Shown here: one piece after another, positions 1,423 through 60,025 of the stretch
Layout: the number at the start of each line of letters is the position of its first letter
Numbering within the stretch: the stretch's first letter is position 1
From: Thozetella sp. PMI_491
Taxonomy: Eukaryota; Ascomycota; Sordariomycetes; Chaetosphaeriales; Chaetosphaeriaceae
Reading direction: 5' to 3'
Assembly: GCA_021432635.1 (NCBI GenBank)
Contig: MU270058.1
Span: 124,001-188,000 of the forward strand
Length of the DNA stretch: 64,000 bases
Notes under the pieces: model-generated
Seen by the model: only the letters and a program-made list of their open reading frames with translations
What the model was told of the DNA's origin: nothing
Database searches by the model: none
Translations under genes and position numbers: made by a program

Positions 1423-3747
1423 CTACTGGACTTCCTCCTTCGGTGCCACCTTCTCGGGAGGAGTCGCGTCGCCAGGGGTGTGGCTCTCGCCCACCACCAC
1501 GTTCTCGGCGTGCATCGTCTTGGGGTGCCTCTTGCCCGTGAGGTCCAGGTAGATGGACTTGAAAGTGTGGACAAGGGTCTTGCGCCCTTCGAAGATGGGG
1601 AAGAGGCCCACACCGAAGAAGGAGCAGAAGATCCAGATGATGCCGACGGTGACCCAGCCGGTGAAGAAGGGCTTGCTGAAGATGTAGCCGGATCCGTACA
1701 TGGGCATCGGCCAAAGGACCAAGAAAGCGAGCGTCTGTGGCATATTAGCATCATGTTATACAAATCTCAAAGAGGGCCATGTCAAACATACCATCACGAT
1801 GGTCATGGTCTTGCTGATCTTGCCAGCACGCTCGAGCTTTTTCTGCTCGTCTTCGAACTCGATAGCCGTCTCGTCGTGGCCGCCGGGGATGTTCTCGAGG
1901 TCCAAGCCAGCTGCAGTGGCGAGGTCGTGATCATCGCCCTTGCGAATGTCCATCATCGACTTCCAGTCGTACTTCTGGGGGCCGAAGGCGAACGTGAGGA
2001 TCGGGATAGTCACGACGGGGGCGAGAAGAGCAACGACGTTGCCAGCCAACATGGGGTTGTTGGAGCCAGTGCACGCCACGCTCAGGTCACCGCACTCCTT
2101 CTTGGCAGTGACGAGCCAGGCGATGAGGGCGGCAATCAAGCCCAGGATTGGGGATAAGGTGGCCGCCCACTTGTTCTGACCGGCCCAGGTCAGGGCGAGG
2201 GTTGCGGGCAGGACAGCCGACGAGATGATGACCCCCATCATGACGTAGAGGTAACCCATCGAGATGCCAGCATACCAGAGACCGACAGAGAAGCTCGCGA
2301 TGAACAGGGCGTAGCCAACGACGATGACGTGGCTCATGTAGATGAGGCGCTTGCCGCTCGCATCAGGCTTGAAGTAGGTGCGGTACAGATCGTAAGTGAA
2401 GATGGAGCTAACGGCGATAAGCTCGCTCGAGGTGGCCGAGGTGACAGCCATGAAGACGATCAAGAGCGTGGCGGCAGCACCACCCTTTCCGAGAAGCGCA
2501 ACCGCGGCGTACGGAAGCACGAGGCCGGCGCTGACGTCGGCATCCGGCATGCGGTCGGGGTAGGTCGGGAACGCAGGGTTGCTCTCGAGAGCCAGGGCGG
2601 CGAGGCCCATAGTGGTGGCCGTCAGCCAGGGGATGGCAAACCACGAGAGGCCGCCCAAGATGTAGCCGGGCAGGGCATGAACCGGAGACGCTGCAATGGC
2701 CTTGTTGTAGTATCCGTTGTCAAGGAACACAGTTCCGAAATTACCAACGCTACAGGGAAGTCTCTCGTCAGCAATTTTCCAATTGGAGCTCGGAGGCTGT
2801 AAACCACAGCAAGGGAGAGCGCGTGAGTTGATACGTACATGTTGATGACGAAGAAGATGGCGCCTTCGCGGGACTGCATGGTGAGGTAGCTGCCATCCTT
2901 GTTGCCATCGACAGGATGGCGGGTGGCCGCTTCCATGAGGAGATCATAGACAGCGGAGGGCGAGCCCAGCTTATCGGAAGTGGCATAAGTCGTCAGGGAG
3001 AAGAGGATGATGATGATGAGCAGGATAAAGGTGTGGATCCAGTCCGTCAGGATGGTGGCCTTGAGACCGCCGACGAGCGTGTAAGCAACGACACCAACGG
3101 GGAGGAGATAGACTGCGTGTGCGTTAGAGGGCGGTCGATACAAGAAGCGGAGAGATGTAACACTCACTAGCGGCGATGGTGTGCATTCCGGTCAGTGCCG
3201 ACACGGTAGCAGAGCCACCGACGATCAGCATGAGCGAGACGAGAATGTTGGTGACTAGGCCAAAGACCATGAAGACAGCGTGGGCAGCGGTGCCGTAGCG
3301 GGCCTTGATGACCTCGAGGAAAGTGTGGGCGTTGGGGGCACGTCTCTTGAGCTCGATGGCGAGAGTCGCGAAGAGCAGGATCTGCACGGTGGCACCCGAG
3401 GCGTACCAGAACGGGCCAGAGACACCGTAGCGGTAGCAGACGCCAGTGCTCTGGAGGAGGGTGGCGGCCCAGGTCCACGAAGAGACCACGGCGGAACCGA
3501 CGAGACCCGACTTGACCGTCCTGCCGGCCGTGTTGAACATCTCCGAAGTCTGGAGTTCTTGGTTGTAGCGGCGAAGGATGAAGGTCACCAGGATCATGCC
3601 TAACACCGGCGTTGTCAGCAGCTGCTCTTTGCGCTCCCATCTCTCAGGGTGCGGGTGGAGGGGCCAGTTCTTACCCAGTGCGAAGGCTATCCCGAGACCA
3701 AGCACGACGCCATAGCCGGCGCCTTGGTCGAGGGCTGCGGCCACCAT
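1423..3747 (-). CDS. dur3: Urea active transporter (DUR3-type sodium:solute symporter)
   Basis: Plasma-membrane high-affinity urea permease of the solute:sodium symporter family; in fungi DUR3 couples urea uptake to H+. Four exons fit in frame: 3747-3168, 3112-2839, 2749-1792 and 1734-1423, giving 707 aa, close to the usual 650-720. The start [19 protein letters not shown] matches the family N-terminus, where QGAGY opens the first membrane segment. Hydrophobic segments run through the protein, with family stretches such as [16 protein letters not shown] and, across the second intron, [17 protein letters not shown]. Introns are 55, 89 and 57 nt with GTGAGT, GTACGT and GTATGT donors. The C-terminal tail is hydrophilic and charged. 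No urease or urea amidolyase gene lies nearby. GATA sites upstream fit nitrogen control. Confidence 0.93.
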
Positions 3748-5558: not shown

Positions 5559-7808
5559 AACGTTTCTGCTTCTGACATTCTCGTATCCACTCTCCCGCGT
5601 ACCAAGCAGAGAAAGCATGTGGGCTAGCTTCGAAAGCTCCGCTGATGCAAAGAGCGAAGATTGGGAGACAAATTTGCAAGTGTCTAGCACTCCACTCCCT
5701 AATCTGGGAGGAGGGCTGCAGCCAGGGGTGTCAACAATAATACCCTTTTGTCAACGATCTCAGATCCCACTAGTGAGCCAACGAGAAAGGACCATCAGTG
5801 TGGTCCTCCGCTAGATCCAGGATCAATACCGAGAAGTCATCATGTGGATTCTCTTTATCCTGTGAACTGGCTGGTGGCTTGTGCAAGTCTGACACTACGC
5901 AGCCGCCATTGCCGCACCGCTCCTTCCTGCTCGACGCCCGAGAAAACTTCTAGACCCCTTTCCTTCTGTCCAGAGTGTTCAGCCTCGCCCTAGCTTCATG
6001 CCAAAAGTTTCAGCATCCCGAGCCGTTGAGTGGCTCTCCTGTCACCAGCCGTTCCAGCTGGACATGCTCCCGCCACGCCAAGGGACGTGGCGCCCAAGAC
6101 TGCCTCCCTCCAGAACTTCACCACCCGCGTCCCCTTTTGAAATAATTGTCTCTCCCTTTTCTTTCCACTGTCAGAATCTTTCTTGTACCCTCCGATGTCG
6201 TTGGAGGCTCGGGTGAAAGGAAGTTCGTTGCTGCAAGCCCGTGCAGCATGCGCCCGCGCCCATCCCACCTCCAAACCCTCCCGAGCGTGGGGAGGATCCG
6301 ACCGGCCGGGTCAGCCTTTCACCCCTTAACTAATGGTAACAACAAATGATCAACATCTGTAGGTGCGTGAATTCCCTACACACGTGGTGCAACCCCAGAT
6401 TCAGGCCTTGCCCTGGTCTAGTTTCATGTCAGGACAGCAATCTGAGTGGCTCCCATGCGCTGTCAGGTTCCCACCCCAGAAGCAAGGTTCAGGGCCTGTC
6501 CCCAGGCACTGGGAACGGTGTCTGCATCTTGACACGACTCGTTAGTCGCATCTGCAGGGTTATGTCGCTTGGATTGACGCCCTACTCGGTCATAATCTTG
6601 TGAACATCCCACCTCAGATGACCTCCATACGTGCATCATGGCCTGGGCTATCAAGGAAAGGAAGACCACGTGACCCTTTCTGTCGTGCTCCTGGCTTGAC
6701 TTGATATCTTATTGGACCGAATAATGTTCTCTTTGCCATTTCTGTCACATCTCCGTCGTGATATCGAGAAACTTTGATGATCCCATAGCAACATTACTCC
6801 ACCCACAGCATCCGCCATGACTAGAGAGATATAGGGGGCTCCCATTGTTTCCGCAATGTATTCATGAGCTAAATGGTCGACGCAAAAGCTGTGAAATCCG
6901 TGCGATAATGAAATTTTTCAAATTGAAGTTATAATTACCGAAGCCTTCTCTGAGACTCCAGGGGGTCTACTGAACTTTGTCCACATCCTCATTGGTATGA
7001 TCACTAGGGGCCACTAGGTGACTGGATGCTTGGGTTTTAAGAGCAACCGAGATTCCGATGTAATAATTTCGGAGGCCGAAAGAGATGTGATCCAGTCCTG
7101 GGCTCGACCATGTTGGCTCTCTACCAAGCAGCTGGCTATCTGAACACACGCTCACGGTACCAAGTCAACACTCGCGAGGATGTTGGATACACCCAGTCCG
7201 ACAAGTCATTGATTGCACAAACCAATTTGAAGAAACAGATTCGCCCGTTATGGAATGGATCTTAACTTAGCCAACAAGATGGCGGGAATGTGGTTAGGCC
7301 AAGGTCAGGTCGTTCCACGGTGAACGCTCAAAGAAGGCCAGGAAGGTGCAAGTGACAAAATAGGAGACCCGAATAGAAAATTTCGTCTCAATTTCGCGTT
7401 TACATTGACCCAGGGAAGTCGCGCCGCACACGCTAGGTGGCAGAGGTTTGTTGACTACGAGGAGAGCTCGCCCCATATCTTCGCCACCCACGTTTGCAAA
7501 CAAACAGCCCTTCACTATCCCTCACGCATTCGAACAAATCACCCCCCCACACCGTCTCCAGGCACGAAATTACCTGGACACTCATTCAAAATCCTCGGCT
7601 GACTGAAAATCCTCATCATCTCAACCTTTCGGTCGGCTTTTACGCACCGTACTTGGAGCTTCGAAGTCTTTACCAAGCCCTAAACTCAGCCCTTTCTTCA
7701 TCCTCTTTGATCTGGGCCAGCCAGCGTCACCATCAACCACAGCCCAACCCTCAGTCAGCTCACGAACATCACAAATCACCTTACCATATCACCCACGACT
7801 CGCCCACC

Positions 7809-19016: not shown

Positions 19017-20254
19017 AGACACGATCCTCGCACGGCCGATGAAGAGAACCAAATTGCGAGTCTTGAAAATTCGGTCTAGATAACTTCTTATTGTTAACAG
19101 TCTGATTCGTGTGTTTTCTGCCGGAGACACGTTGGGCGTTCCTGTCCTAGGATTAGCATTGGCTAGCACATTAGACACTTGGTTTCATCTGTATTTAAAC
19201 TTAGAAATAATACTAATGGAGTTCCATTTCGGGGTGCACTCTAGTACTTGAAGTAATATTATGCGTGAATCACTTACTTGGTTGATTTTCTCTGCGCATA
19301 ATTTCCTAGTCGGAATCTAAGGTACAATCCTGCCATGGGTTAATTCGCTGATGCTACTAGAATAATGCAGTAGCCCTCCCCTCTTCATGGGAAGAGAAAA
19401 TGCGGGGGAGCGGAACGGCCCTTAGTGCACTTGCACTTGGCCACATGTATCGCTCATATTATCGCGGGGAAAACCCGTTGAGTTCGTCATGGATTACTCA
19501 TGCAGCGGCCTATGCACACCCGACGATAACGACGCAGTTGGAGGGTTACACAAAGCAAAGGCAAGCGAATGCGACATACCCAGCATGCTGCTTCCCTGCA
19601 CGGCGGCAAGAGCTTGCCTATCCGATATGCTGTGGCAGAAGGAAACCCACGAGTTAGAGTCTTCACATGCTGCAGCTGTGGGTACGCGAGATCCGGAAGG
19701 GTGGTGTCGAGAGCGGAGGCGGGTTTTCGACTGAGAGAAGGAGGGTTACCAGCGCGGTTCCCATGATGTATAAGGAGACCTACCGTAGGGAAGTACGCGT
19801 TAACAATGGCGAAGTCAATCAAGTGCCCAAGTTAGAATGCTTTTCCCCTTGTGCTTGTGCAACGTAAGTGTGTTATGTTTTGAAGGGAGAACTAGCCCCC
19901 ACCACCGTATTTAGTAGGGTGGCACAAAGATATATTTTGTACGACGGGAGTAGCGAATGCTAGGGAAGATATATCTGCGCGAGGAGGAGCGTGCATAGAT
20001 TCTGGTCACGGAATTTCGATGCTTCGGTATGTGCACCGGCCCTCCAAAGACGTTTGTCCGTGGGGTTTTATGCAAAGCTGCCATGTTTGGGGCAAAGCTC
20101 GCCTCAATCCTATAAAGGAGGCCCTCTCCTCGCCGGCATCTGATAAAGCCGGCGCAGTCTATTGTAGATTCCAAGACTGGTCGCTCCCTCAGCTGTGCTG
20201 TATCACGTACACTGTTTCTCTCAATCTCCCATCACATCAATATTTCCAGTAACC
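19017..20254. other. Intergenic, P450 upstream region
   Basis: Between the chitin synthase remnant and the P450 start. The left part (19080-19350) is AT-rich. No convincing frame is seen. The right end holds the P450 core promoter. Confidence 0.5.
20111..20117 (+). promoter_or_regulatory. TATA box of the P450 gene
   Basis: TATAAAG lies 138 bp upstream of the P450 ATG (20255), a normal fungal spacing, and is followed by a pyrimidine-rich leader. Confidence 0.5.
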
Positions 20255-21995
20255 ATGGAGTTTCTTTTGACAGTGTATGGGCTGCTGGGTCTCTCCGTCC
20301 TCGCCTATGTAATCTCGTGGGCTCAGTCCTACCGCCGTCTTCGCCACTTTGACGGCCCGCCCCTCAGCTCTACCGATCTGTTTATGCTGCGGACGGCGTC
20401 CTCTGGCCGTCTTTGCGAGATTTATATGGAAGTGTGTCAGAAGTACGGATCTCTGGCCCGCATCGGCCCTAAGACGCTCGTCACGGACGACCCGGAACTC
20501 ATCAAGCGCATGTCCTCTGCGCGATCGGCTTACAGTCGCTCCAGCTACTACTCTTGCCTGCGTCTGCACCCCCGGCTGCATAACATGTTTAGCACGCTCG
20601 ACCGCGACCAACATGACGATATCAAAGCCAGGACCGCTGCAGGATACACCAGCCGCGAGGTGCCCAACCTCGAGGCCGACATCGACGAGCAGATAGTGGT
20701 GATGCAAGATCTCATACGTAAAAAATATATCTCCACTGGATCGGACACCAAGTTGATGGATTTCTCTAATCTCATGTCCTATCTGACTCTCGATATAATC
20801 ACCAAGCTCGCCTATGGAGAGACATTCGATTGGCTATCAACGGACTCGGATGTCTTTTCCTTCAACAAGATTCTCCATGGGAAAATGCAACTGATGGAGA
20901 CGATAGGAGAAGTAGAGCCTCTTGGTGTGTTTTTTGGGTCCATACCCGTTAGGAAGATATTCGGGGCCAAGGCGACGGATCCCGACGGTCTGGGGAGACT
21001 GATGGCGTAGGACTCCTAGGCACGGTCATTTATCTTGACATGCTAATCTTGCGCTCAGACTCGCGGCAGACCTCGTCAACAAAAGATTTGGACCCGATGC
21101 AAAAGACCAAAAAGATATGCTGGTTCGTACATATTAATGAAGAAAGACATTGTCCAATGCTTCTAATATCTCACGCTCTATTAGGGAAGTTTCATTCGGC
21201 ATGGCCTATCTAGGGAGCACTGCGAGGGCGAGATCCTTTTGCAGGTAGGAGCAGGTGCTGATGTGAGTACTCACTCTGAACATATCTCGCTATATTTTAA
21301 TATCTCTTATCGCTGTCCAAATAAATGAGTTACGGACTTGATACCGTGCCCAGCTCAGTGGCTGTTGCTGAGCAGCACTCTTCTAGACATCAGCCTGTGC
21401 ATTGAAAGGCATCTTCCTATACGCTATCACAGCCCCGCCAGTCTATCATCGCTTGCAACAAGAGATCGACCGAGGCATCTCAGAAGGGCGCATTTCGACC
21501 CCAATCACCAACGCCGAGGGTAAAGCTTTGCCGTACCTGCAAGCGGTTATCCTGGAGGGCCTCCGCTTGCACCCCCCGGTCCCTACGATATTCACCAAGC
21601 AGCTCTACGGCTCTGAGGACGACTATTACCAAGGCAAGCGCATTCCGGTCGGCACCAAGATTGCCCAAGCAACGCGCGGCCTCATGAATCGCAAGGATAT
21701 CTTCGGCGAGGACGCCGCACTTTTCCGGCCGGAGCGGTGGCTCGAGGCCGGGCCGGAGAAGCGCGACGAGATGGAGAACACCGTACATCTGAACTGGGGC
21801 TATGGGCGATGGGGCTGTGCCGGCAAGAATGTGGCCTGGGTTGAGCTTAACAAGATCGTCGTTGAGATTCTGCGCTACTTCGACCTCCAGATTGCTGCGC
21901 CTACAAAGCCATGGAATACCGCGACCTTCGTGACTGTTCAAGTATCCGGCATGATGGTGAAAGTCACTCTACGACCAGAGCAGAAGGCCGAGTAG
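20255..21995 (+). CDS. Cytochrome P450 monooxygenase (pisatin demethylase-like)
   Basis: Microsomal haem-thiolate monooxygenase. Four exons, 20255-21006, 21059-21122, 21185-21262 and 21387-21995, join in frame to 500 aa, the usual P450 length. An N-terminal anchor (about residues 2-22) is followed by a short hinge. The I-helix reads VGAGADTSACAL across the third intron, the K-helix ExxR is EGLR, and the PERF-like region is FRPERW. The haem loop is WGYGRWGCAGKNVA with Cys442 as ligand; Trp replaces the usual first Phe. The wording around the I-helix and the haem loop resembles CYP57/pisatin demethylase-type fungal P450s, but the substrate is unknown. The first donor (GTAGGA) and second donor (GTTCGT) are weak, though no other splice keeps the frame. 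Confidence 0.88.
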
Positions 21996-32050: not shown

Positions 32051-33114
32051 TCACTGCGGCGGCTCATCCAATACCACCGTGCCCTCCATCTGCACCGGAT
32101 CTTTAGTCCGTCCATTCTCAACGGGCAAGGGGTGACTCTCTGCCCACTGCACGATCTTGTCGAACTTGCGGCACCTGTGGTTAGTGCTGAAGTCCGGATA
32201 GAGGCCCCACTTCTTCACCCAGTTGTACGTAACAATGCCGACGTCGCCCTGGCACATGATGGCCTGCCGCAGCATCTCGATACAGTGGTCGATGTGCATT
32301 CGCAGCGTCGACTCGCTGTCGGTGAAGCTGTTGGGCCGGTTCTCGGGGAGGTCGTAGTACTCCCGGTAGGTGTACATCCGCACAAGATTCTATTGGAGAG
32401 ACCACTGGGTTAGGTGGAAGCTGACAGAGGGGGGAAGAAGGATTGGAGGAGGGGACGAACCACACAGTGCAGCTGGTGGAAAACCTCGATGCCAACAAAG
32501 AACTGGCCGCCCTCCTCTTCGGGATATTTGACGGCGGTGGTGCGGGACTTGCCGATCCTGTCGACGATGGACCCTTCGACACCAGAGTAGTTGTCTAGAC
32601 AGTCGGCAAGTTATAGCAAGGCTTGAGTTTAAAGTAGAAGCATGTCTCTCACCATGCGTCAGATACTTCCACGCCTCGTCCAACTCCTTGCTCGGGTACC
32701 CTGCGTATGGGGAGTGCTGTTCCAATGCACCGTGGAACTTGACATCCTCGTACTCGATGACGCCATCCTCGAGAAGTGGTGCTATGGTTACGGTCAGCTC
32801 GCGTGCTATTCAGAGTTTTCTCTGGAGAACTTGCAGTAGTTAGACGTCACAGCAGCGCACTCCCGCTCGGCGCATTGGGCCACGTTTCGACCCGTGGCGA
32901 CTAGCGCGAGGACTGCCACGAGCAGGACCGTGTTTGTCAGTGCGAGGGCTTTCCATCCTGCTTGGGAACTTTTCGAAGAGGAACGCCGAGGATATCCAAG
33001 CAAGGATGCGTCGGCGCTCTCCTGGCCATCAGTGCTGTGGGACAGCCGCTCTTCGCCGCAGGCGAGGGGCTCGTAGAGCTGTTCCTTCGCACGCTCTGTA
33101 TGATGAGCTGCCAT
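32051..33114 (-). CDS. UstY-type (DUF3328) oxidase, RiPP-tailoring family
   Basis: DUF3328 proteins such as UstYa/UstYb install oxidative crosslinks in fungal ribosomal peptides. Four exons, 33114-32835, 32781-32653, 32594-32461 and 32389-32051, give 293 aa. A cytoplasmic N-terminus precedes one membrane segment (about residues 55-74). The family blocks follow in order: YSPLLEDGVIEY across the first intron, the first HxxHC motif (HQLHC, 32478-32464), YREYYDLPE, and the second HxxHC motif (HIDHC, 32296-32282) followed by IEMLRQAIMCQGDVG. Both metal-binding motifs are intact. Intron 1 has a GCAAGT donor; it is the only splice that restores the YSP block. The start is the Met before AAHHTERA; another Met lies 14 codons upstream. 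Transcribed divergently from the repeat precursor. Confidence 0.9.
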
Positions 33115-33899
33115 GTTCGAATATTGACGGCTGAGGATGCTTTGGACTGTGATCAAGAGGTATCGACGCAGAGGAGTAGGTGGGATGTCTGTGTCTATAG
33201 GAGAAAGTAACCGGGGGGGTTCGCGAGGAAGCAGCTGTGCCTATGTCAGCTCTTTGTCGTGCCAAAGCGACTGGCGCGAGTTTACAGCACAATCACGACC
33301 TTCCCTGATCAGACTCTAAACGAGACAAGACTGATGTGACGCGCGGCCACCAGGGCGCGGCCGCCGGACCTCCCGGAGCAGCAGAATCATTGGACGGATA
33401 GCTCATAAGTTCCTATATCATACAGAAGGAAGCGGGGCATGTTACTCTCTTCGCGGGAGCGTCCGGGATCTGTCTGGGGTATACGAGTGATTCGCACCAG
33501 TCCCCGGCATTAGTCCACAAAGACTACAGCGGTCGAGCGCAGAGTCCATGCTTAATATCAACTCTTCGAGCCTAGTGCCGTACATGAGCCGTCTGGCTGA
33601 TAACATGCATAGTCCGTGGCTCATCATCACCGCTCGGAATGTAGCACAGGTTGTGCCGTACTTTCCGACCCCAACCGGTTCTGACCAAGCCGCCCCAGCC
33701 GAGAAAGTCCTCTACGGACGCAGTCACGAAGCACAGGAAAGGACCTTAAAGCCAGCGCTTCCTTCCCACTCAAGCCTCGCGCTCCTGCCCAAACGGCTTC
33801 GGCTCTGTCAACCCATTGATCAGTGCCTAATACAGGGTTATCCTTCTGCTACCCATTTTCTTAGCTTTAACTTGCCCTCCAGCTCGCACATAAGCCATC
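33115..33899. promoter_or_regulatory. Shared upstream region of UstY-type gene and repeat precursor
   Basis: The ATGs of the two divergent genes are 785 bp apart, so this segment must hold both promoters. That is the arrangement expected if the two genes are switched together. I see no clear palindromic Zn2Cys6 site or strong TATA box. Short frames here are shadows. Confidence 0.5.
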
Positions 33900-34317
33900 A
33901 TGCACTTCATCAAGGCTTCACTCGCGGTCATCGGGGCTCTTGCCTCGCTTTCCCAGGCCATCCCCGTCACTACTGGACGCTCGATTGCCGTGTACGTGAT
34001 TAACTCCTAAACACTTAGATGAAAGAATGCACTAATGTTCGACGCACAGACGTTCCAACTGGGATAAATACGATCCCGAGCCCGAGGGAGTCACTGAGAA
34101 GCGTTCCAATTGGGATAAATACGATCCCGAGCCCGAGGGAGTTACTGAGAAGCGTTCCAACTGGGATAAATACGATCCCGAGCCCGAGGGAGTCACTGAG
34201 AAGCGTTCCAACTGGGATAAATACGATCCCGAGCCCGAGGGAGTCACTGAGAAACGCTCCAACTGGGATAAATACGATCCCGAGCCCGAGGGAGTCACTG
34301 AGAAGCGCTCCAACTAG
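33900..34317 (+). CDS. Kex2-repeat secreted precursor, candidate dikaritin-type RiPP precursor
   Basis: Exon 1 (33900-33991) and exon 2 (34050-34317) join through GTACGT and a CAG acceptor (58-nt intron) to 119 aa. Residues 1-20 are a signal peptide (MHFIKASLAVIGALASLSQA). After a short leader come five identical 17-residue units, RSNWDKYDPEPEGVTEK, each joined to the next by Lys-Arg, the site of the Golgi protease Kex2/KexB. Cutting and trimming would release five copies of one Trp- and Tyr-containing 15-mer. Signal peptide, repeated core and KR spacing are those of UstA-type precursors, and the neighbour is a UstY oxidase, so a cyclic peptide product is the best inference. A mating pheromone is less likely, since Sordariomycete alpha-pheromones carry a Trp-Cys core. 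A sixth unit is cut by TAG at 34315-34317. Confidence 0.88.
34051..34317 (+). repeat. 51-nt tandem repeat in the precursor, five full units plus a cut sixth
   Basis: Units start at 34051, 34102, 34153, 34204, 34255 and 34306. The five full units differ only at synonymous sites (AAC/AAT, GTC/GTT, AAG/AAA, CGT/CGC). The sixth begins the same way, then meets TAG where the others have the Trp codon TGG, and its downstream bases have diverged. Confidence 0.95.
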
Positions 34318-36177
34318 GAGAAGTACGACGCCGAGGGCAATACCGTGGAATAGCTTAGGGGTATTATTGCTAGAACTCTAAAATATACGGTGTGTTTATC
34401 ATGATTTGCAATTAGGGATTGTCATGGATTTCTATCTACCGTCAAACCCACACATGGCCGCTAGTCACCCATATAGTAGGGAGAGTAACTAGGCCTATAG
34501 GTAGTGACAGTGTCGACTACCCCGCCAAGGTTTATTTTGGTGGGGCTGCCTACATGCTATGGGTTATAGGTTCGAACCTAGCCGGTCGACAGCCAACAAA
34601 AAATGCAAAATCCATCCAAGCCGCGTTGTAAAGCTTTTTTCCCCCAGTTTAGCAACTACCGCAGGCATTCCCTGCGTTTCTAACTTGACACAAATAAATA
34701 CACACACTCTTGATAATTATCGTTTTAATCCGAATTACAAGTTCTCATTCTCCGCACGTCCCAATGTAGCAGCGATGAACTTGGCAACCGCATGGCGGCC
34801 GAGGTGCCCTCAAGTTTCCATCGGAGGTAATAGCAAGATTGCCAGTTGATTGTCATGCCTACCGATCGCTGGTTCTTCGAAATTTGCGAGATTTCCCTGA
34901 TCCTACCCCGCAACCCCTCATGGCTTCTTATGCCTGTTTTGGTCATTTGTTGCTGCCGTGTAACTGTAACTGCCAGGCCTAACCTTTCCTGTTAGTGGCG
35001 GGTTGATCCTCTAATATCTGACCGGCCTGCGCTGTCTTTTAGCTCGTCCTCTTGTCTTAAGCCTTCTTTACCTTTGACAGAGGGTAAACTTAAAATCCCT
35101 GCGAAATAGACAATCCTATGGGAGTTAAGTTGTATGATCCTTCATCTTTAGAAGGGCTAATGAGTTTTACAATAATATTAATATATTAAGTATTAAGGTG
35201 GCTTACCCTACTATTACTAACTATAATAAATTCAACCAGGTTCTAGTTACCTAGTAAGGAGAAATGTCCTACCTCTATGTAACGCCACGGAGTGGGTGCA
35301 GTTATAAGCTAGTTGGGGCACCACTTGCCCGCCCCATTGCGTTCAAGGCTTGATCTTTTACCCCGTATGGCGTGGTAGTATGGTGCGCCATTACACCTAC
35401 TTTCCAAGGAGATAGCAACTATTCTCTCAATTAAAAAGCCCATTACCACTGACTACATGAGCTTTGGAGAGCAAGGGAGCAAGGGCCTGTTCAAGAAGAA
35501 TATCTTCATCAACTACTTCAGCAAGTATCTGTCCCCGGCTCAGGACAAGTCCTGCGCTAATGCCTGGTTTAGATTTTGACAATGTGAGGTAACAAAATGT
35601 CTACGGCCAAGAGAGTTGCGGGACCGGCTTTTTGACTCGGGCTTTGCTCAACAAATGGAATCGCTAGCTCTAACCCCACGTCAAGCCTTCAGATACTGCC
35701 TTACACTGATCATTTTTTCCGCATCGCTCTAGGCAGCTAGAGGAGCAAGTGTAAATCTATATATCTTCCCCACCGACTCATGGATGTCCAAGCGGAGCTG
35801 TATTTGTTGCCCTGCCCTGGAGACATTTTATTCATCTGTGGTGCCAAGACCGGAAGCTCCAAAGCTTTACGCAGGCGATTATGCAGCACGCAAACTTACC
35901 GGCATGTACCCTTCGGGGGTGCCGTCGTTACCTACAAGAAAGAGACTCTAACTTAGAGTTTGTTGACTTGTTGACCAAACCTTGAGCTACGCACGTCCAG
36001 CCTCCCTGGGATACTTCAAGGTGGCTGCAACTTACCAGTGAGAGGGTAATTATAGTAGGAAGTATTTAGGTACTTGGTGGCAGCGTTCCCCTTGGCTAGA
36101 AAGAGCTTCAGCTCAATATTTTCCCCTACTCATCCTTGCTAGTCTCTTACCTAGCGGAAAATATTGACCGATTGACT
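34318..36177. other. Intergenic region with AT-rich patch and repeat copy B
   Basis: Bases 34318-34353 continue the precursor frame for 11 codons after its stop, to a second TAG at 34351-34353. The stretch 35090-35290 is AT-rich. A 40-codon frame at 35458-35580 (+) reads like a fragment of a real protein but is not recognised. Repeat copy B lies at 35621-35867. A tRNA B-box-like GGTTCGAACC occurs near 34570 without a tRNA around it. Confidence 0.45.
35621..35867. repeat. 247-bp dispersed repeat, copy B
   Basis: Direct-orientation partner of 25188-25437. The match covers GGACCGGCTTTT through GCTCCAAAGCTT with scattered substitutions and three short indels. Flanking bases differ at the two sites, so it is an element-like unit and not part of a larger duplication. 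It is non-coding. Confidence 0.85.
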
Positions 36178-36549
36178 ATGCATTGCCGCACACTCGCCCT
36201 TCTCTTAGGCATCCTCGCCCCGGTACTCGTACGGGCTCTTCCGGGTCCCGCTGAGTCAACACCCACAACCGCACCGGAAGAAGACTTGAGCGATTATGTG
36301 GATGAAGGCCCGTATACCTTTTGTGCCACGTGCCCTCTCCTCGGGACCGAACGAATCGTCCAGATCCTCCCCACCATAACCCCTGGTCAGGGCGGCTTCC
36401 TGACGCAGACAATTCCGATCGATGAACGCAAGTATACGACGTTGGGCCCAGAGGCCTGGAAGCATCGGCCCAAATTTACTTGGAAGATGCGGAAGAGCAA
36501 GCAACCTCAGGCGACCGGGAAACCGAACGTCGAGACAGAAGGGAAGTAG
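36178..36549 (+). CDS. Small secreted protein, unknown function
   Basis: Family not recognised. One exon of 123 codons. The ATG at 36178 is chosen because it starts directly at a good signal peptide (MHCRTLALLLGILAPVLVRA); an ATG 42 bases upstream would put a polar stretch in front. The mature part has an acidic start (APEEDLSDYVDEG), a single CATC pair, a region with PTITPGQGGFLTQTIPIDERKY and a basic Lys/Arg-rich tail. Two close Cys do not suggest a disulfide-stabilised fold. It lies between the repeat precursor and the HET gene, with no evidence that it is linked to either. Confidence 0.65.
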   Translation: MHCRTLALLLGILAPVLVRALPGPAESTPTTAPEEDLSDYVDEGPYTFCATCPLLGTERIVQILPTITPGQGGFLTQTIPIDERKYTTLGPEAWKHRPKFTWKMRKSKQPQATGKPNVETEGK

Positions 36550-46295: not shown

Positions 46296-49200
46296 TCACT
46301 CGTGCCAGCCCGTCGCGATCGCGGCAAACTTTCCCCGTTTCTTCAGCAGTTCCTTTGGCCGGCCAGTTTCTGCGACCTGACCCTCCTCCATCACTACAAT
46401 GAGATCTGAATTCATGATGCTGTCTATCCGATGCGCGACCGTCACCACTGTCCAGTCCGCGAAATTCTCCTTGATGATTGTCCTCATATGTTCATCCGTC
46501 TCTGCGTCCACGCTGCTTGTTGCTTCGTCGAGAAGAAGAACCCCAAGTCGCTTCCCTTCGTGCATCAGTGTGGCACGTGCGAGCGCGAACAGCTGCTTCT
46601 GTCCCTGAGAAAGGGAGACACCAGTTATGTCGCCCTCGAGACCGCCTCGCTCCGAGAGTATGTCCCACAGCCTAACGCGTCTCAAGGCCGCAATGATGGC
46701 TTCGTCCAAGTGTTCGCCACGCGGGTCAGCATTGAGCCGGACTGTGGCAGGGAGGAGGAGCGGGTCCTGCGGGATTACTACCAGCTTGCTGCGAATGCTA
46801 GAGCGCGGGAGAGTGGCGAGATCTAGGTCGTCGACAAGCACGGAACCACTGTCGATTTCCAAGAGACGAAGGAGAGTTCCAACCAGAGAGCTCTTGCCAC
46901 TGTATGGATTATGACGTTAGCTTGTATTCATGGGCCGATTTAGAGGCTAGTGAGGTAAATACCTTCCAGTGCGGCCGCAAATGCCAACTTTTTGCCCTGG
47001 TTGGATAGTGAGGCTGACGTTGCGGATGCCGACAGCGTTTGAGCTGTTCACAGGTCAGCAGCACGTCTATGAGCACTCGTATGAGATAATAAAAATCACA
47101 CCTATGAGAAGCTGTGACATTGCGGAATTCAATGGCACCGGAATGAGGCCACGATGGTGGTGGATCATTCTTCTCCTCCGCCTTGTCCTCTGGCAGTACC
47201 GCATCTTCGAGACCCTTTAGGCGCGCGATGGCACCCAGAGAAGTTTCCAGCAAAGTGAACCCCAGAACAAAGTTCGAGATATCACTGCCGATGGCTATCA
47301 TGAAGTAGTGGTTAGTTTGCGTCTAAATTCCACGGAGTCAGGTGCGACTAGTGTGCTCACCTAGAATGTTGTTCAATGACACGCCTAGCAGACCCGGGTT
47401 TGTACTAGTTCTTAATCCGAGTGACAACCCCACCACGAGGATCGCCTGTGCGCCAACCATGAGCTCCAGGACGAGATTTAGCCAGCGCTGGATGCAGTGG
47501 TGTAGATAGAAGGGACGTTGGGACAGGTCTAGAAGCCGGACGTTCTCTTCTTCGAAATAGCGCTCCCATCCAAAGGCCCGGATGGTAGCTAGGCCATCCA
47601 GACTCTCCAGGAAATGCAGATGTAATGGTGCCTTGGCTTCGAGATCTAGGAGACGGAGTTGACGGGAGGTCCGCAGATACACGTGCTGGATGCCGGCGAT
47701 GGCGAGGATTAGGAAGGGTATGCTGATAGCCATGTATGTCGAGCCGGTGGCGACCAAAGAGACGGAGCCGATGGACATGAACAAGTCTGGTTGTATTTTG
47801 TTAGCACACTGCAAGCTCTAAAGATAGGACAGGGCTTGACACTTGCTTGATATAGTAGCCAGCACACCAGTCGGTAATCGCGTCTCAATCAGTGTCATGT
47901 CTTGGCTGAACCGATTCAAGATCGTTCCGCTGTCCGTAGATCCAAAGAACGACAAAGGAGCTCTTGATACCACCTTCAGGAGCGTGTGGTGGAAATTTCT
48001 CGAGGTTTTTGGCGAGATGAGAATTAGCATCGTCCTAAACAGCGGCTGCTTGTCAGAAAGCTCGGCCTAGGTGCCTGTTGAATGGGGAATGCTCACCCAG
48101 CATAGCCAAAGATTCCAAGCGCGCTCATTATTGCCAGGAGCAGATAGATGCTCGAGTATAAGGCGATAGAACTACCGCCATTATCTGTCCACCAGCTCAC
48201 CCACACAACTAGTTTCCAATGCTCGTGTCAGGAGTGGTGACATGGAGGGCAGGTACAACTTACAACCAAATATGGTGCCGAAGACATTGGCCATGACAGC
48301 CGCCACGAACAAGAGCAACCTCCACGGGCCGATACCTTTGAAGTAATACCTATAGACGGCCCAATCACCGGTGGCACGGGTCAGGTCGTCTAGTTCGTTT
48401 CTTTCCGACACCTCTAGGGCCTTTCTTTCCATCTCACTTGACTCCTTTGGAGACTCCTGTTCGCCCGGCTGGTGGCTCTCTAGACGAACTATATCGGCCA
48501 GCTTGTGCCGTACCACTTGTTCGTACGTTCCTTCGTACTCGACCCCCCCGTTAGAGAGGACCAGGACCTTGTCGCCAAATGGCAGATACTCGGCTGCGCC
48601 GCCTTTAGCTACTCGTCTGTACATAGCCTTGAAAGCATCGACTTACCGGCATGGGTTACCAGTAGGGCCGTGGAGCCAGTCTTTCTGAGAAACCCATCTT
48701 TGCTCAACACTCGACTAACCACCGTTTTTTGGGTGTTGGAATCCAGAGCGCTCAAAACGTCATCCAGGATGACAATCTCGGCGCGAGCGTACAGGGCGCG
48801 AGCGAGAGCGACCCTCTGCCTCTGTCCTCCGCTGAGCACCGTGCTGCCGCTTCCTATCTTGGTGCGGTCGCCATCCGTGAGAAGGCCGAAATCTTGTTCA
48901 AGCGCACAGGCATGCACGACGGTCCTATACAGCTCTTCATCCACCGGCGCGTCCTCCTTTGCCCTACAGATTGCCTGTCGGATCGTGACGTTGGGCAGCC
49001 AGGGCTTTTGAGCGCAGAAGGCGATGCGTTTCGTCGAGACAGTGATGACACCCTTGGTAGGAATGACTTCTCCGAGTATCGCCCTGAGGAGGGTACTCTT
49101 ACCAGACCCAACAGCGCCGATAATCATGGTGAGCGATCCGCGGCCAATGGCAAAGCTTACCTGCTGGAGCACGAAGCTTGCAGATGCTGCGGGACGGACC

Positions 49201-51139
49201 TCCACACCATCCACCACGATAGCATCCGTTGTCGACGATCCCCCGGTCGCCCTGGCTGGATTAGCGACTGACTGCAGTTCAATATCGCCCGATGCCGCCT
49301 CTGCACCAGCGCCCTGGGCCGAGGAGGAGGTGTGACCAGCCAGATGGCGAGGGTCCTCCCGTGGCGCCAGCATAAGGAACTCTTGCATGCGATCAAAGCA
49401 ACCAAGGCTGGATGCTGTACCAGGAATAGCGCTCAGCAGCCTCGCGATGGGGTCTGTGAGCAGGCCGATGATAGACAGACTGACAAACGCCTGGGTAGTC
49501 TCCAGCGACTGCTCCCCCCGCGCAGTTGCCTGGATAGAGTAGACACCCAGAGTCAAGGCGGGGGCCAACGCCCACGGCAAGTTCTGAACGACATTCTGCC
49601 ACACAATGCTCCAAAGGAAGCCGGCCATGCGGTGCGTCTCTTGAACGCGCAGGCGCTGAACCATGTCGGCCACGACGTCACCGAGCCCCATCATCCGGAC
49701 ACTGCGCATGTCGGCGAGCATCGCGCTCGTCACCGACAGGCGCTTCTGCACAGCTTCGACCCAGACCTTCTGCCGGTCACCGATGGAGCTCGCGATCCGC
49801 TCCGTGGCCAGGAATGCCAATAACGAGGTCACGATCGGCACTATGCACACCCATCCCAACTGCAAGGCCAGTAGCGTGACACCAACCACCACCTCGGCTA
49901 GGCGCGCCCACACTTCGTCCAGCATGGCCAGGCTATCCGCGATGCGGTCCACGTCCGTGCTCATCAAGGTCACCGCTCTTGAGTCAGTATGCTCACTTTC
50001 TGGCAGGTGCAGCGCGTGGTTATATACGAGCGCGACGCTCGCACCGCGGAACATGGTGATAAACCGGTACAGGTTCTGGTGGTAGTGGACTTTGGCAACT
50101 GCCGAGCCTATGTAGATCAGCCCCGTGGCGCCGATGAGGCCATACCCCTCGTTCCACGACTTCTGGGTTTCCGGCTCCGTGATGATTTCCAAGACACGGG
50201 CGATCAGCAGGGGTTGGGCGAAGGTGAAGGCGATCATGCATATGCGGGGAAAGAAGGTGGCGAGGAGCGACCGCCAGAGCCCTCTGTAGACAGCCACGAC
50301 AAACTCGTAGCGGCGTTCGGGCCGGCGGCGGCGCTCCCACGCATTCTGCAGCCTGTCTCTCACGCTGGCCGAGGTGAGCTTCTCGTCCAGAGAGTAGAGA
50401 TCACTCAAGGTGAGAACGTTGCGGATGCCGCGGAGAAAGAGAGTGTTGATCCACCACAGCATGCTCCGGCTGATGATGCCGCTTGTAGACTCGGGCGGGA
50501 GGGTCTGGTAGAGAGGCTCTAGATAGGTTCGCTTCCCCTGGGCTTCGAGGAGCAGCAAGGCCGCCTTGGTTGCCGTGCTCGCTGAGAAGACGGCGGCGAT
50601 AGCCTCCTTGTGACCCAGGAGCCATAGCGTCCGGATCTGGCTAAGGTCTAGCAGCGACGTGAACAAGAGGTAGACATTGAGCAAGGATGACGGTCGCACG
50701 GACCGAGAGTCCTCGATCCAAGTGATAAACACAAGCTGTAGCGCCACCACGAGGTTGATGGCGGTCGCGGCAATGGTGAACTTTGTCTGTGCTGCGCGGT
50801 CGAGGGCCCAGAGCACGAGTGTGGTGATCTGTAGTCCTACCAGGAGTACAGCCAGGATCTAGGCCGCGGAGTTAGCAGCCATAATAGTGGTGGTCTGCGT
50901 GCAGAGTTTCGAGAGTCTCGTACCAATTTCTCTCCGCGCTGGATGCTAAATACAGTCTTTTTCGGCTCTCCGGACAAGTGCTTCAACCTCACGGCGGCAG
51001 CCAGGATGAAGATGACCCCGGGGAACAGGCTCAGGATGGACTGCTCAAACGCCAGCGTAAAATCGAATCCCTCGCGACAGGCGTCGGCCACTGCGGGACC
51101 GAAGGCATCGTCGGCCTCGGGGGAGCACTGCGATGCCAT
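46296..51139 (-). CDS. ABC transporter, ABCC/MRP-type multidrug exporter
   Basis: Full-length ABCC exporter that moves amphipathic compounds or conjugates over the plasma or vacuolar membrane. Nine exons fit: 51139-50924, 50858-48647, 48593-48264, 48208-48097, 48034-47847, 47786-47361, 47294-47102, 47043-46963 and 46899-46296; total 1453 aa. The layout is TMD0-TMD1-NBD1-TMD2-NBD2. NBD1 has Walker A GAVGSGKST, signature LSGGQRQRVALARAL and Walker B VILDDV, where Asp replaces the catalytic Glu as is usual in ABCC. NBD2 has Walker A GRTGSGKSS (split by an intron), LSQGQKQLFALARA and LLLDEATSSVD. The fifth intron (47846-47787) has a GCAAGT donor, the only one that gives TISNLFMSIGS. The substrate is unknown; export of a metabolite made nearby is one possibility. 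Confidence 0.93.
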
Positions 51140-57384: not shown

Positions 57385-60025
57385 TCCTGGGTAGAAGGGA
57401 TGCGGGGTAGATAAGAGGGGTTTTCGGTTTTCCTTTGGTGTTATCCTGGGCATGGAGCGATTTTTTATGCAAACTTCACGAACGATACTTCTACTTCATA
57501 GATGGCCGGGCGCTTTGGCTCCTAACATCGAGGCGGGGCCCTAGAAAGGCATCCCCGCTGTACAATATCTAGTACCCGACATATATGGTCCAGATGTACT
57601 CTTAGTTCTTAACTTTTCCTCTCGGCTGTCTCGAATCGCGGGGATGGTGGAAGATAGATGGGGTGCGGCGATACAGAAAGAAGAGGCCTGTAGCCTGAAC
57701 AGAATCTCGCCCCTGGTGTCGTCTCGATTTCGGACGCTCACGAATACGATCCTATATCACTCGTCATTCGCTGCTAAAGTGGTTGCATATGTTGCCGTGC
57801 TCGGTCCCGCCGTCAGACAGACTGCTGTCGCTTAGTTCATTCCGCTTGGCCAGCTATTAACAAGGGGACCGAAACAGCGTAGAGGAGTAGCGGATGTGTT
57901 CCATGCTTCATTTCCGGGGCGGCCAGGGGCGCGCCGAGAAACCTAATCTCCAGGGAGGGTCGGCCCGCCCAACAAAATGAAGAGCGGGGAGGTTAGGAAA
58001 GCAGGAATGGAATCGCTATCTGCCCAGTGGAACCAGCACCATCGGCGCTTGATGGCGCCGGAGCGGCCGTTCCAATCGCGGCATGCCGAGAAGTTCCTAT
58101 TGCTGCTTCCTTGCAGGCTGTAATATCGCCTTGTTCAAAAGCCCGGCGATAACCCTGGAGACCTCATAGGCGGGTATCAACGGACTCGAGTGATAACTCA
58201 TCTATATCTTTCGCACCTCCTCCCACACATAACTGAACTTGCATTCCTAGGAGCACCTATGGAAGACTGGGCGGAATTATTCGCAGTCATCTAGGATGGA
58301 TGGGAAGAGGGGGAGGGACCTGGGCCGTATGTCGCGAACCATAGAGTAGAGTCAGAGGCCAACAACTGTTCGGTTCAAAGCCACTGGCATAGGTAATCCC
58401 TCTCAACTCACGCCAAACTACACAGAATACATGTTTCCGAGAATACAGTAAGTTCAACAAGCTTATCTTGACGTCCTGCCACTTATCCTGTCTCACCCCC
58501 CAGTCAGGAGGCAGTTGTTGATATGAAAAAGGGGGTGGCTCGGGTCAAAGGCGACCGATTGGAAGAGGGGAGGACCTTAGTTTCAACAGTCGAAGCAATA
58601 AGCGTAGATCAAGTAACTGAGACTCCAAGTAGTCATTAAGAGTTTTAATAGGGGAGGAAAACATGTGTTGGATAGAATGTACATGGTTACCATGCACCGA
58701 TTTAGTCGTCTTAGCAAATTAGATATTTATTCTTGGCCTTTTGTCACCGGCACTTGAGAGGCACTGGGCGATCTAGACGTGTAACTTGAGATAAACTATA
58801 GCGTATTATAATACATTTCTATAATCCTCCTTTGTACATGTCACAACAAAACATATACCCAGTAGCTCTCATGAAGTTAACGGTTGAAGACTCGCTTGCT
58901 TCCCTTTCGTACTGGGGAAGCTCGCCTTTATTATATACAAGTTTCCCACGCTCTCTTGACCGCTTTTCCAGTGTACAGGGGCGTGTGCGTGACCATTAAA
59001 GACTGCTTGCTACTGTAAGTAAGATCCCTTGTTCGTGGATCGGTTGCTTGCCGAGCCAGTTTACGAGCTTCCCCTGCTTCCAGCTGGCAGGACTGACGCC
59101 CAGCTGCGAGCTATACCCCTGCTTCCTTTCTGACAGAAACAGAATAGCCTAGACTTCTCAGCCGCGGTCGAGAGCGGTGCGCAACAAGACGACATTGAAG
59201 GAAGCCTGTCGTTTAAACGTCACTGGATACTAAATAGGGTTTAAGAGTGTGACCGGTTAGTCCAATGGTGGTACTATAATCTTGATAACTTACCGAGAAA
59301 CCTCAAAATAACTGTATTAGTTCTTTGGGTATATGTTCAAACAGAGACTTGCTATTACATTTTACATCCATATCCTGGGAAGCCATCGAATCGGTGTATG
59401 GCGTATACTCTCTGACGCCTGAGTTCGTCGCCTCAAAGAGTCTCCCCCTTACGCTGCCTTCTCTACACGAGTTAATACGGATTTATATCCTTAAAGCCTA
59501 CCATAAAATTCTTTACGTCGTATATATACCTTCTTAGAATAATAGCGAAAAAAAAATATAATCTTATTCCCTATTAATAGAATATATTATAAAGGCACTT
59601 CCTTCACCTTTTTTTTGTAGAGAGAAGCTAGATCGTGCTATTGAGTATGACTCGTGTTGCTTCGATATACTCCGGCAGAGTATTATGTGTTATGCCAATG
59701 ATCAGCTGTACACCACCAGCTATAATGACGTAGGGTCCAGCCAGACGCGGCAAAACCGCGACTGGGATGCTCTGAGGGATTGGGCGGTGGAGAGGTAGGC
59801 ACGCTACCATGGCTACATGTGAAAAGGTGAGTTTCTTATGCGCCAACAGATGAAATCTCATTAATATATACTTTGTGCTTTGTACTGCAGCTACCTATCC
59901 AGGCAAGCGTTTTCCCCTGATGCAATCCGCCGTAGCGCCCCAAGCCCAAGACTGATCCTCCCAGCCTCCGGAGTAAAGCTCATATTCTACCCCTCGGCCA
60001 TCCAGAACGGCTCCTCGCGCGCTCA
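57385..60025. other. Intergenic region, partly AT-rich
   Basis: Between the CRH gene (+) and the DUF4360 gene (-). The part 58640-59620 is AT-rich with A and T runs and short frames only, as in decayed repeats, but no element ends were identified. No gene is supported. Confidence 0.45.

Follow-up and report, generated by a model that had tools for sequence, protein, structure and literature searches.

What does the short repeat gene in this stretch of DNA make: the precursor of a cyclic peptide, a linear secreted signal, or nothing any longer? Dikaritin-type RiPP loci are typified by a repeat precursor paired with an UstYa-type oxidase gene, and our best explanation, to which we give a probability of about 0.7, is that the locus would be a two-gene cassette of this type, with a secreted repeat precursor, its release by Kex2 and Kex1, and cyclisation of the core by UstYa. 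Throughout, "the window" is the whole stretch analysed, 64,000 nucleotides long (C44:124001-188000). The precursor gene was modelled within it as follows.

33900-34317, plus strand: precursor gene, with ATG at 33900 and TAG at 34315-34317; a 119-residue protein after splicing
33900-33991, plus strand: exon 1, MHFIKASLAVIGALASLSQA, signal-peptide-like (about 33900-33959), after which a short pro-region begins
33992-34049, plus strand: predicted intron of 58 nt, GTACGT...CACAG; putative, read from DNA alone
34050-34317, plus strand: exon 2, with five identical RSNWDKYDPEPEGVTEK units at 34051-34305 and the stop codon at 34315-34317
34306-34353, plus strand: sixth unit, diverged and broken by an in-frame stop

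Judged by eye, the N-terminus has a charged start, a hydrophobic run and an SQA-IP cut site. Four donors and three acceptors gave 12 possible splice combinations, and the pair GT 33992 and AG 34049 was the only one to reach the repeats in frame, which upholds, as a reading of the DNA, the 58-nt intron proposed in the earlier sequence-only reading. The array had the highest tandem-repeat score in the window (500, the next best being 157; period 51, 94% matches), and a chance origin is thereby excluded. Its five units are identical at the protein level and 17 residues long, with Lys-Arg at the four junctions and once more after unit 5. The earlier description, a signal-like start followed by five identical units separated by Lys-Arg, thus stood as far as the array is concerned and was refined at both ends: before unit 1, Val-Arg takes the place of Lys-Arg, and a broken sixth unit follows the fifth. 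At the DNA level the five units differed from their consensus at four positions, and all four differences were silent transitions (4/4). As about 31% of the transitions that the unit could undergo are silent, such an outcome would be expected by chance in about 1% of cases, and we take it as mild evidence that selection may have kept the peptide.

Two other matches in this region were rejected. The precursor matched the Pfam family Pec_lyase_N with an E value of 8.1e-6 and a score of 26.5 bits, just over the cut-off of 26; no single stretch of it passed, and the match was regarded as a repeat artefact. A tRNA-derived repeat considered at 34440-34610, just 3' of the precursor, found only itself in a genome search that skipped very common words, and an Rfam search of 33000-36000 was empty. 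Also located 3' of the precursor is a small secreted-looking protein, MHCRTLALLLGILAPVLVRA... (36178-36549, plus strand), which has neither a Pfam match nor repeats.

The dikaritin-type (UstA-like) character that the sequence-only reading ascribed to the precursor is strengthened by a gene which that reading did not mention, a divergently transcribed UstYa gene 785 bp away.

33114-32051, minus strand: UstYa (DUF3328) oxidase gene, four exons, 293 aa, open frame
33114-32835, 32781-32653, 32594-32461 and 32389-32051, minus strand: the modelled exons of the UstYa gene
32834-32782, minus strand: its first intron, modelled as GC-AG with a GCAAGT donor; 19 combinations kept the junction open
Residues 176-180 and 213-217 of the UstYa protein: the two metal-site HxxHC motifs, HQLHC and HIDHC
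33115-33899: the stretch between the start codons of the precursor and UstYa genes, 785 bp

The intergenic stretch is presumably a shared divergent promoter, so that the two genes would be regulated together; a repeat search within it returned nothing informative. The spliced UstYa protein aligned with positions 4-220 of the 220 in the Pfam UstYa profile (E = 4.6e-59), and the His and Cys of both HxxHC motifs were invariant among 15 aligned rows, the window protein included, as well as across 43 homologues aligned separately. Public databases yielded 67 homologues, the best of them in Annulohypoxylon, Jackrogersella, Aspergillus flavus, Coniochaeta, Daldinia and Hypoxylon, and the better ones were 56-66% identical to the window protein. 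Orthologues include P0001 of Annulohypoxylon, P0003 of A. flavus (AFCA_009803), P0004 of Coniochaeta and P0005 of Daldinia. Of the other matches within the genome itself, the seven best showed 32-44% identity, with a few short fragments reaching 50%. In a tree of 43 rows (the window protein, 18 open reading frames of the genome and 24 of the 67 public homologues), the window protein grouped with those of Hypoxylaceae, Coniochaeta, Nemania and A. flavus, away from the genome's other 18; 18 of the 40 inner branches were well supported, and long branches leave the rest unsure. Since it is closer to the public homologues than to the genome's others, and the tree agrees, the window UstYa appears to represent, in intact form, a widespread lineage rather than a recent local copy. 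The AlphaFold model of one homologue (P0001, from Annulohypoxylon; mean pLDDT 78.9) has a single long helix, spanning residues 48-80, that would suit a membrane anchor. A Foldseek search with this model gave 0 matches at an E value of 0.001 or below, and a PDB sequence search with UstYa gave nothing informative.

The remaining genes of the window that might be considered for the cassette, together with a second trace of UstYa, are as follows.

20168-21992: cytochrome P450
40582-42404: flavin monooxygenase
46299-50858: ABC transporter
59604-59798, plus strand: UstYa relic covering about 46 residues at the end of the domain (E = 7.6e-10), HxxHC missing

The first three lie 6-17 kb off, and the HET, SET and unassigned genes that intervene leave no ground for adding them to the cassette. 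The relic sits in AT-rich DNA 25 kb from the cassette. For tyrosinase, 80 exon matches were found genome-wide, none of them (0/80) on C44, the contig that holds the window.

We then weighed the proximity of the two genes against the strongest competing explanation, namely that the 15-mer freed by Kex2 serves in unmodified form as an alpha-type pheromone, a hormone or an effector, UstYa being its neighbour by accident. The precursor does resemble ascomycete alpha-type pheromone precursors in its putative signal peptide and its Kex2 repeats of similar length, and 15 residues fall within the span of 9-24 given for ascomycete alpha pheromones in an excerpt of one source (PMC6339444). Other such precursors give linear products, according to an excerpt of another (PMC9769878). 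Excerpts of a survey of 1461 fungal strains state that 1758 of 7878 Kex2-processed repeat proteins have a DUF3328 gene among their 15 nearest genes, the other 6120 having none near (PMC7329392). The same excerpts, however, put the peak of DUF3328 positions around such precursors at the very next gene and describe annotated mating factors and pheromones as lacking a DUF3328 neighbour with only three exceptions (PMC7329392), whereas here UstYa begins 785 bp away. Roughly 0.3% of random sites would have an UstYa locus within 1 kb (an estimate from about 91 loci in 72.3 Mb), and among pheromone families in Pfam none matched the precursor at E values up to 1. A linear signal is thus an unlikely account of the locus.

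The pairing of a precursor with UstYa recurs at other loci of the same genome. In its 72.3 Mb, 149 UstYa exon matches fell into about 91 loci when a 10-kb gap was used (94 at 5 kb and 89 at 20 kb); these counts are of exon matches, some of them relics, rather than of annotated genes. With that caution, they are far above the mean of about six per strain (9399 DUF3328 matches in total) given in the survey excerpts (PMC7329392). We examined 17 of the loci (20 stretches, 263,900 bases), chosen for their high scores rather than at random, using a detector of Lys-Arg or Arg-Arg repeats supplemented with a tandem-repeat scan. The detector found arrays at L009 (two), L010, L014, L022, L026 and L028, and the scan added those at L021, L015 and L020, the last two with looser cleavage sites. 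Repeat-precursor arrays were thus present at 9 of the 17 loci (10 arrays, the window's own being excluded). Left out of these counts were the hits at L002, L006 and L007, which represent the loci of L010 and of the window, and second-frame shadows in L002 and L010. Run on five resamplings of these 263,900 bases, the detector found no array (0 hits). Tyr was found in all 10 arrays, in at least one unit type of each, and Trp in three (L021, L022 and L026); in L026, where two unit types alternate, one of them has no Tyr.

Two of these arrays have features of their own. The L026 precursor (L026:2123-2773, plus strand) alternates CPIPWTKNYGEYE and GCTDVVxEDGTIx, each with one Cys and separated by Lys-Arg, and could give rise to two peptides in equal amounts. 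The one at L020 (about 2500-3100, minus strand) has a signal-peptide-like start followed by units like TPEPCQGSLCKADTAYAILKER, each containing two Cys and one Tyr, with no clear dibasic site. Taken as a whole, the genome is unusually rich in candidate RiPP loci for a single fungus.

How would a dikaritin-type cassette of this kind work? In dikaritin processing, the Kex2-type cut after Lys-Arg and Kex1-type trimming are established. By analogy, the signal peptide would take the precursor into the secretory pathway, a Kex2-type protease would cut after Lys-Arg, and a Kex1-type carboxypeptidase would trim the basic residues, so that copies of the 15-mer SNWDKYDPEPEGVTE would be freed. The membrane-anchored UstYa encoded by the neighbouring gene would then oxidise the core at Tyr6 of the 15-mer, which would become bonded to a nearby side chain, perhaps that of Trp3 or of a Tyr-adjacent residue, to form a small ring. 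The acidic tail, EPEGVTE, is probably a recognition sequence and may be trimmed, and the cyclic peptide would finally be secreted. What the sequence itself establishes is the layout of the precursor, the open UstYa gene beside it with its two motifs, and the return of such pairs at further UstYa loci of the genome.

Tyr6 is the likelier site of oxidation, and Trp3 may be either its partner or a bystander. This preference comes from the presence of Tyr in all 10 arrays, against Trp in three, and from the enrichment of Tyr in the survey, whose excerpts give Tyr in 65.6% of UstYa-associated repeats versus 38.2% of others, and Trp in 20.5% versus 24.5%, so that Trp-bearing precursors beside UstYa are already known (PMC7329392). 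UstY enzymes are described, in an excerpt of a further paper, as having a dicopper site and forming Tyr-O ethers, such as that from Tyr-O to Phe C-beta in asperipin-2a (PMC12186524). The cross-link between Trp4 and Tyr7 (numbered along the unit) offered by the sequence-only reading is a guess. A picture in which UstYa joins Trp3 to Tyr6 as a W-x-x-Y ring in SNWDKYD, in a genome with dozens of precursor-oxidase pairs side by side, strikes us as quite unlikely. We know of no characterised fungal UstYa product with a Trp-Tyr cross-link, and literature listings contained none by title.

The core had also been called undescribed, and its product possibly a new class of cyclic peptide. The former claim agrees with our searches: the core had no match at E values up to 10 among 5.8 billion proteins, the searches covering annotated proteins of 65-208 residues and also of 103-327 residues, where scoring was confined to the 7989 candidates with the most words in common. 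A search of its own genome returned only the core itself and one match at an E value of 0.93, and a plasmid DNA search gave nothing informative. As a text string, the core was absent from 5.39 million open papers; supplementary tables of published surveys lay outside this search, and an earlier listing there is possible. With no homologue of the precursor found, conservation of the core is not seen beyond the five units. The latter claim was not borne out: 838 precursor types have already been catalogued in the class according to the survey excerpts (PMC7329392), and we read the core as a new one within a known class, the dikaritin type.

Against the cassette reading we counted the lack of a precursor homologue, the Val-Arg before unit 1, the broken sixth unit, the lack of a tyrosinase on the contig and the borderline Pec_lyase_N match. 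The alternative of a former dikaritin locus that has decayed or fallen silent, its cassette no longer expressed or processed, would suit that sixth unit, the separate relic without HxxHC at 59604-59798 and the AT-richer DNA 3' of the precursor (GC 0.46 versus 0.55 for the window), but is improbable given five protein-identical units with silent changes only, an open, intron-containing precursor frame and a UstYa gene that is likewise open and shares 56-66% identity with the better of its homologues.

The two-gene cassette remains our preferred reading, and with its repeat precursor beside an oxidase of the ring-closing type the locus probably adds one new example to a natural-product family already known. 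A system of this kind could hardly be much simpler than a single precursor and a single oxidase gene placed back to back, a layout that suits a direct test of a lone UstYa on a core with both Trp and Tyr. A genome with about 91 UstYa loci could, moreover, supply many enzyme-core pairs for learning how oxidases and cores are matched. Dikaritins, described as RiPPs that derive from precursors of this sort and owe their cyclisation to UstYa homologues, numbered only five reported members in the excerpt of a 2022 review (PMC10512285), as against the 1758 precursors beside DUF3328 genes in the survey excerpts (PMC7329392). Nine dikaritin clusters are described for Venturia inaequalis (excerpt of PMC9632046), and a survey of Hypoxylaceae reports an ustiloxin-like RiPP cluster in some species, its template search being one that may overlook others (excerpt of PMC8403587).

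Within the genome, the closest comparison is the L021 precursor (about 6720-7175, plus strand), which has 27-residue units around ENWNAAAWSNFVKSYVDGAE and an adjacent UstYa gene (C28:427815-428138). It resembles the window's precursor in that this UstYa is among the genome's closest to the window's (44% identical), in an apparent intron after the signal peptide, and in a unit that carries Asn-Trp close to its beginning and a Tyr further along. It differs in the length of the unit and in its two Trp, and the UstYa tree keeps the two oxidases apart; the common Asn-Trp is too short to prove kinship.

With the ustiloxin and phomopsin loci, the window's locus has in common a putative signal peptide (here judged by eye), repeats separated by Lys-Arg, an UstYa-type oxidase and a core Tyr. 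Those systems have two or five UstYa, as given in the survey excerpts (PMC7329392), whereas there is one here. Assignment to their subtype was rejected, RSNWDKYDPEPEGVTEK having no Y-x-I-x core and the contig no tyrosinase. The asperipin core is FYYTGY, while that of the locus, SNWDKYDPEPEGVTE, has no Phe-Tyr-Tyr run. On precursor and oxidase, the likeness is to asperipin-2a of Aspergillus flavus, which combines a Kex2-site repeat precursor with a single UstYa-type oxidase in the survey excerpts (PMC7329392). Because it has a single UstYa and its contig no tyrosinase, we read the locus as nearer to asperipin-2a than to ustiloxin or phomopsin.
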